Origin: Cryoendolithus antarcticus
Taxonomy: Eukaryota > Ascomycota > Dothideomycetes > Cladosporiales > Cladosporiaceae
Length of the DNA: 64,000 nt
Assembly: GCA_002077065.1 (NCBI GenBank)
Contig: NAJO01000027.1
Location: forward strand, 620,001-684,000
Direction: 5' to 3'
A program made the translations under genes and the position numbers. Below are positions 56,642-56,815 of this stretch, piece by piece. The notes under the pieces were generated by a model that had not been told where the DNA came from, made no database searches, and worked only from the letters and a program-made list of their open reading frames with translations. The first letter of the stretch is position 1, and each line of letters opens with the position of its first letter.

Positions 56642-56677
56642 GGCCCAGTGGTCTAGTGGTATGATTTTCGCTTCGGA

Positions 56678-56705
56678 GATTCTCCAGGAGCTCTGCTCCC
56701 AAGAT
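56678..56705 (+). other. canonical anticodon-loop tRNA intron (28 nt)
   Basis: Lies directly after position 37, the normal place for eukaryotic nuclear tRNA introns cut by the SEN endonuclease. It contains C-rich segments able to pair with the CGG anticodon. Confidence 0.8.
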
Positions 56706-56727
56706 TGCGAGAGGCCCCGGGTTCAAA

Positions 56728-56782
56728 GTCAGTACATACCGAGAATCCCTCCACCCTCATCCTTCACTAACGACTCGCTTAG
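56728..56782 (+). other. 55-nt spliceosomal-type insert in the tRNA T-loop
   Basis: Starts GTCAGT, contains CACTAAC with its branch adenosine roughly 15 nt from the end, and ends CTTAG. Exact GT-AG excision rebuilds the T-arm. Length and signals match the mRNA introns of the neighbouring genes (mostly 50-69 nt with CTGAC/CTAAC). I found no clear bulge-helix-bulge that would make it a SEN substrate, though I could not fold it by computer. Confidence 0.75.
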
Positions 56783-56811
56783 TCCCGGCTGGGCCCGTCC
56801 ACACGTTGTTC

Positions 56812-56815
56812 TTTT
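56812..56815 (+). terminator. Pol III terminator of the tRNA gene
   Basis: TTTT 16 nt after the discriminator base of the tRNA-Pro gene, the normal RNA polymerase III stop. Confidence 0.7.

Follow-up and report, generated by a model that had tools for sequence, protein, structure and literature searches.

The window analysed here, a stretch of 64,000 nucleotides from Cryoendolithus antarcticus, contains a tRNA-Pro(CGG) gene whose T-loop is interrupted by 55 nucleotides, which raises the question of how such an insert could be removed from a tRNA precursor. Nuclear tRNA splicing, as it is taught, uses the SEN endonuclease plus a ligase and acts at position 37. Our sequence analysis suggests that in this rock-dwelling black fungus the mRNA-splicing machine also finishes tRNAs. 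The insert is very probably a U2-type spliceosomal intron, to be removed by the spliceosome, and its host a live tRNA-Pro(CGG) gene that Pol III transcribes. At least 25 such introns were found in 23 tRNA genes of the genome. The gene is organised as follows:

56642..56677, + strand: exon 1 of tRNA-Pro(CGG), with the acceptor 5′ strand, D arm and anticodon CGG (direct reading, ARAGORN)
56649..56659, + strand: A box, TGGTCTAGTGG, named by what we take to be the A-box consensus (sequence reading)
56678..56705, + strand: canonical 28-nt tRNA intron in the anticodon loop, position 37 (ARAGORN i(37,28) after removal of the T-loop insert)
56706..56727, + strand: exon 2, from the 3′ side of the anticodon loop to T-loop base 59 (direct reading)
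56720..56730, + strand: B box of 11 bases, core GGTTCAA in the exon, final 3 bases in the intron (B-box scan)
56728..56782, + strand: putative 55-nt mRNA-type (U2-type) intron at 59/60, 5′ splice site GTCAGT and 3′ splice site TTAG (excision test; same site in the second copy, L002)
56767..56771, + strand: branch-point-like CTAAC, its A at 56770, 12 nt from the intron end (motif scan)
56783..56795, + strand: exon 3, with base 60, the T-stem 3′ strand and the acceptor 3′ strand (direct reading)
56796, + strand: discriminator base, C
56809..56815, + strand: Pol III terminator-like TTCTTTT (direct reading)

The original prediction, that this is a real tRNA-Pro gene, is borne out by an acceptor stem paired at 7/7 positions (GGCCCAG/CTGGGCC), a T-stem paired at 5/5 (CCGGG/CCCGG), the A box and the TTCTTTT lying 3′ of the gene. 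The anticodon stem (TTCGC/GCGAG) is paired with one G-T included. The cloverleaf within 56642-56795 requires omitting both 56678-56705 and 56728-56782, as expected from the predicted combination of a position-37 intron with a 55-nt T-loop insert, and ARAGORN reported nothing for the uncut gene but called tRNA-Pro(cgg) after the insert was cut out. Exact GT..AG removal had been said to restore the T-loop; when 2121 excisions of 45-65 nt were tried, 37 restored a tRNA, and just one of these, 56728-56782, has GT..AG ends. The 5′ splice site is weakish. The proposed match to mRNA-intron length holds roughly, in that mRNA-intron-like motifs in the window, which are motif matches rather than cDNA-confirmed introns, peak at 50-54 nt (12 vs 4.2 in shuffles). 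Across 40-120 nt these motifs are fewer than in shuffles (37 vs 71.3), which leaves the length peak as the one informative signal.

A second copy of the gene allows the insert to be compared. In the 46,965,068-base genome, Pro(CGG) was found at two places, the window (contig C70) and L002 on contig C61. The exons of the two copies are identical and the flanks match at 64/100 positions upstream and 67/101 downstream, whereas the inserts match at only 26/55. The L002 insert nevertheless keeps GTAAGC, CTAAC and a final AG (its 3′ end reads AAG) at the same places, indicating that the splice signals of the window insert are more than a chance motif match. Exons and splice signals are thus conserved in the Pro(CGG) pair while the remaining intron drifts. 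Two fragments, L002:486-537 (+) and L001:2428-2466 (-), are 83% and 87% identical to the stretch spanning the Pro(CGG) anticodon intron and exon 2; in both cases the Pro(CGG) gene is roughly 0.8-1 kb away, and the fragments are perhaps relics of copies.

The insert is not a one-off, and its occurrence is wider than originally claimed. The 47-Mb genome holds 25 inserts outside position 37 in 23 tRNA genes of 13 anticodon families: Pro(CGG), His(GTG), Arg(TCG), Arg(TCT), Asp(GTC) and Ile(AAT) with two genes each, Arg(ACG) with three, Gly(TCC), Thr(TGT), Ser(TGA), Leu(TAA) and Pro(AGG) with one each, and Lys(CTT) with three genes carrying five introns. They reduce to about 14 independent gene sites at ten tRNA positions, given here in our own base numbering of the exons:

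8/9 and 68/69: Lys
51/52: Asp
55/56: Arg(ACG)
59/60: Pro(CGG), His, Arg(TCG)
61/62: Gly
62/63: Ser
63/64: Thr
65/66: Ile
68/69: Leu, Arg(TCT)
69/70: Pro(AGG)

By the same numbering, none of the 25 inserts lies at 37/38, the canonical SEN position. They share one anatomy: all 25 have GT...AG ends and a length of 51-58 nt, 24 end in YAG, 24 carry G at intron position 5, and all 25 contain CTRAY with its A 9-12 nt from the end, which shuffled interiors pass in 2.3% of cases. Before excision ARAGORN reported nothing in 18/23 genes and already called five (both Ile genes, Leu, Pro(AGG) and the Asp gene on contig C119); after excision it gave the right isotype in 22/23. The remaining gene, Asp on C119, was read as Phe after the chosen excision and as Asp only after others. 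Insert boundaries were set by hand with structure and paralogs in view, and an alternative GT..AG excision also restores a tRNA in 9/19 single-intron genes. Within the class, acceptor stems pair at 7/7 positions in 19 genes and at 6/7 in four.

These counts come from one genome surveyed by several routes. RF00005 marked 61 tRNA places at E up to 10 (58 at 0.1), and D-arm patterns with DNA queries added 23 further clear genes, giving 84 recognisable genes under mixed scoring methods, with about ten odd tRNA-like loci left out. Interrupted genes make up 16/61 of the former set and 7/23 of the latter. As RF00005 missed intact Cys, Trp, Gly(GCC) and Pro(TGG) genes found otherwise, absence from its set is weak evidence. 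The four D-arm patterns gave 65 vs 46, 58 vs 28, 11 vs 11 and 15 vs 3 matches against control, and they would miss genes with an interrupted D arm; 20 matches chosen by eye from the 65- and 58-match patterns comprised eight clear tRNA genes, five odd tRNA-like loci and seven places with no tRNA. Phe, Glu, Asn, elongator Met, Lys(TTT) and some other tRNAs were not found by RF00005, D-arm patterns or DNA queries, and may be interrupted or simply missed. The tRNA model R1 served as a locator only, since in its alignment the Arg(TCT) row ends inside the intron and the Pro row contains a surplus base. With the composite GTRNGTTCRANYCC there were 50 matches vs 36 in control, two being U6 genes and 13 lying in known tRNA genes; 29 of the other 35 were compared with the tRNA model, and none of these fits it at E up to 1. 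A further pattern, GGTTCRANGTNNGT, was rejected because its 34 matches vs 65 in control are mostly chance; they include the window Pro gene and both His genes. The odd tRNA-like loci (L100, L112, L114, L115, L117, L122, L134, L136, L137, L139) have an A box and a T-arm, several have a pairing acceptor, and most have very long anticodon-loop inserts and unusual triplets at 34-36; L122 is Trp-like, its anticodon being ambiguous.

Comparison between gene copies shows inserts present in one and absent from the other at exact boundaries. The Ser(TGA) intron present in L106 is absent exactly from L033, and matching Asp(GTC) loci (L094 and L103) differ by exact intron presence or absence. The same holds for Lys(CTT) L037 and L107, where the matching flank is downstream, and for Pro(AGG) L140 and L138, whose flanks are alike only near the gene. 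Intron-lacking paralogs of Ile, Gly, Arg(ACG) and Leu show the same exact joint. Lys(CTT) L037 (contig C73) has the mRNA-type intron and lacks the position-37 intron, and its counterpart L107 is the reverse. Based on the tRNA order and flanks that they share, the paired contigs are probably homeologs or diverged haplotypes. The available excerpts of two genome reports give an R. antarcticum assembly of 47.4 Mb with 18,781 genes, after removal of contigs aligning at 95% over their length (PMC5502844), and a 24.6-Mb assembly of another Rachicladosporium sp. (PMC12560822); to the extent of these excerpts, the two sizes fit a duplicated genome. A permease encoded in the window shares 99% identity with an Oleoguttula sp. 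CCFEE 5521 protein, and the window Msp1 shares 98% with one of Rachicladosporium sp. CCFEE 5018, both Dothideomycetes. These matches place the DNA near Rachicladosporium and Oleoguttula strains, and a Trichosporonales origin, which the paired contigs had suggested, was rejected.

In eight compared tRNA pairs the exons, position-37 intron included, are 94-100% identical (99-100% in six), and the mRNA-type introns 47-98%. The His (L132/L133), Arg(TCG) (L104/L105) and Ile (L051/L052) introns are 93-98% identical between copies; the upstream flanks of these copies are 42-50% identical, and their downstream flanks 82, 79 and 44%, respectively. The near-identity of these introns could stem from gene conversion or recent copying, or from a function of the intron. 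Given this near-identity and the reduction to about 14 sites, the 25 introns are not independent. An all-against-all comparison of the introns showed no introner family; the stretches they share are short and lie mainly around CTAAC and at the 3′ end.

Intron-lacking copies also invite the explanation that the interrupted genes are silent, or pseudogenes in decay, with intact paralogs doing the work. Such copies exist for Ile, Gly, Arg(ACG), Leu, Asp, Ser, Lys and Pro(AGG), and the two Pro(TGG) genes without an mRNA-type intron (L130 and L131) might read CCG by wobble. However, searching the genome with the spliced Pro(CGG) sequence, a search that a diverged gene might escape, returned only the two interrupted genes; intact Pro(CGG) copies, which the original prediction had named as evidence that would count against it, did not appear. 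The same applies to tRNA-His(GTG), for which two genes were found, both interrupted at 59/60, and no intact gene appeared in a search with its own spliced sequence, with the proviso that a diverged gene might escape and that parts of the genome may be missing from the assembly. The argument that splicing would be needed is stronger for His, since Pro(TGG) might serve CCG codons. Use of both codon sets is ordinary in nine window reading frames, at 13.0 per 1000 codons for CCG and 14.8 plus 10.1 for His. In addition, the high exon identity between copies, the paired acceptors and the conservation of splice signals amid drifting intron sequence are not what decay would leave, making this explanation improbable.

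The promoter elements point to functional genes as well. The B-box core GTTCRA is present in 23/23 genes, 44-74 nt from the A-box start. It is exonic in 18 genes and intron-borne in five, where the intron precedes or splits the B box. The Arg(ACG) introns split the core after GGTT and start with GTGAGTTCAA, GTACGTTCGA or again GTACGTTCGA, by which the core is rebuilt, and the Asp(GTC) intron precedes the B box and holds GTTCGAT near its own start, the exonic box lying 47 nt further. The Lys 8/9 introns precede the remainder of the A box and detach its first base; the genes that carry them have TTATA at -37. A T-run of at least four starts within 50 nt of all 23 interrupted genes. With a cloverleaf after excision, a B-box core and a T-run, the interrupted genes look like functional Pol III tRNA genes.

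Both U6 genes found carry the same type of intron. They lie at L127:151-222 (+) and L128:186-287 (-) and are interrupted after GGATGACA by introns of 56 and 58 nt. Both introns read GTGAGT...CAG and start with GTGAGTTCGAACCCC, placing the Pol III B box in the first intron bases; CTRAY occurs in one of the two, and the copy on contig C1 reads TTGAC. Taken together, the common anatomy of the 25 tRNA inserts, the presence/absence pairs and the U6 parallel strongly support, at the sequence level, the spliceosomal type that had been proposed for the insert.

These observations also bear on whether the inserts are instead ectopic tRNA introns of the kind found in archaea and some red algae, excised by SEN with the exons then ligated. 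Fungi have SEN, and it would cut the anticodon-loop introns also present in many of these genes. A bulge-helix-bulge (BHB) was found at 0/25 junction pairs, in a strict, low-power test covering 23 tRNA and two U6 introns, with the Arg(TCT) introns left out and no positive control; as shuffles gave 0.06, this result adds little. The uniform spliceosomal signals weigh more against SEN, which gives no reason for shared GT/AG ends, CTRAY and a length of 51-58 nt, and U6 hosts the same intron type, so that cutting by SEN is highly improbable. Nothing was found to favour a misassembly, or the insertion of a mobile element with no link to splicing, and either has a negligible probability given the same site on two diverged contigs with differing insert sequences, and one anatomy at about 14 sites.

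For the spliceosomal reading, we infer Pol III transcription, spliceosomal catalysis and the order of steps as follows. TFIIIC would bind the A box and the B-box core, whether kept in the exon or rebuilt in the intron, and Pol III would make the tRNA precursor. The spliceosome would then take out the 51-58-nt GT..CTRAY..AG intron as a lariat, and SEN the separate position-37 intron where one is present. End processing and T-loop modification would come last.

The evidence as a whole makes it likely that spliceosomal introns have come to reside regularly in the tRNA genes of this lineage, and that their gain or loss was recent enough for the two copies of a duplicated genome to differ in them. 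On the same reading, the spliceosome would be indispensable for translation because every tRNA-His gene would need it, and introns that split or precede the B box would survive only with a new B box, so that one short stretch would act both as the region of the 5′ splice site and as Pol III promoter. The whole class would escape standard annotation. A second system appears to mature tRNAs at ten positions other than 37. The presence/absence pairs make intron gain testable, as exactly bounded insertions in abundant structured RNAs, and reverse splicing and the action of the spliceosome on uncapped Pol III transcripts in general become testable too.

Eukaryotic tRNA annotation may miss such genes, and isotypes missing from fungal tRNA surveys merit a re-check. 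For example, the excerpt available of a 2026 survey of Trichosporonales lists His or Asp tRNAs as absent in some species (PMC12820176), and it is speculation, within the limits of that excerpt, that hidden introns explain them. In the portion available, the description of tRNAscan-SE 2.0 presents its noncanonical-intron search for the archaeal mode (PMC8450103), and words beginning with "spliceosom" are absent from its main text. The word tRNA is absent from the R. antarcticum genome paper (PMC5502844). Open-access titles and abstract starts, among the matches listed and with subscription papers and preprints outside this scope, held no description of spliceosomal introns in nuclear tRNA genes, nor did the available parts of PMC6461891 and PMC11782384 hold a case. 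Spliceosomal introns sometimes interrupt non-coding RNA genes, according to the part available of PMC2586383. What appears to be new here is the host, tRNA, a class of RNA for which we found no described case; the presence of such introns in non-coding RNA genes is known.

Several known systems resemble the one proposed here. Archaeal noncanonical tRNA introns, which have a BHB, have in common with the window insert the T-loop site 59/60; here spliceosomal signals were found and no BHB. In the portion seen of one source, 673 noncanonical introns are counted in 217 archaeal genomes (PMC8450103). Canonical nuclear tRNA introns (37/38, SEN) are present in the same genes, as at 56678-56705, but differ from the mRNA-type inserts in position and enzyme and lack their shared GT/AG ends and branch motif. 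U6, U2 and rRNA genes are already known as hosts of spliceosomal introns. Such introns reportedly occur in ascomycete rDNA (Bhattacharya et al. 2000) and in Rhodotorula U2 (Takahashi et al. 1993); as here they interrupt non-coding RNA genes, although, as far as the parts of the sources seen go, in other RNAs made by other polymerases, with no tRNA among them. A further parallel is U6 of S. pombe and some other fungi, where a U2-type intron interrupts a short Pol III transcript. In S. pombe U6 the B box presumably lies inside the intron, an arrangement seen here in U6 and in five tRNA genes. Unlike the known U6 introns, those described here are hosted by tRNAs of 13 anticodon families, often with a SEN-type intron in the same precursor.
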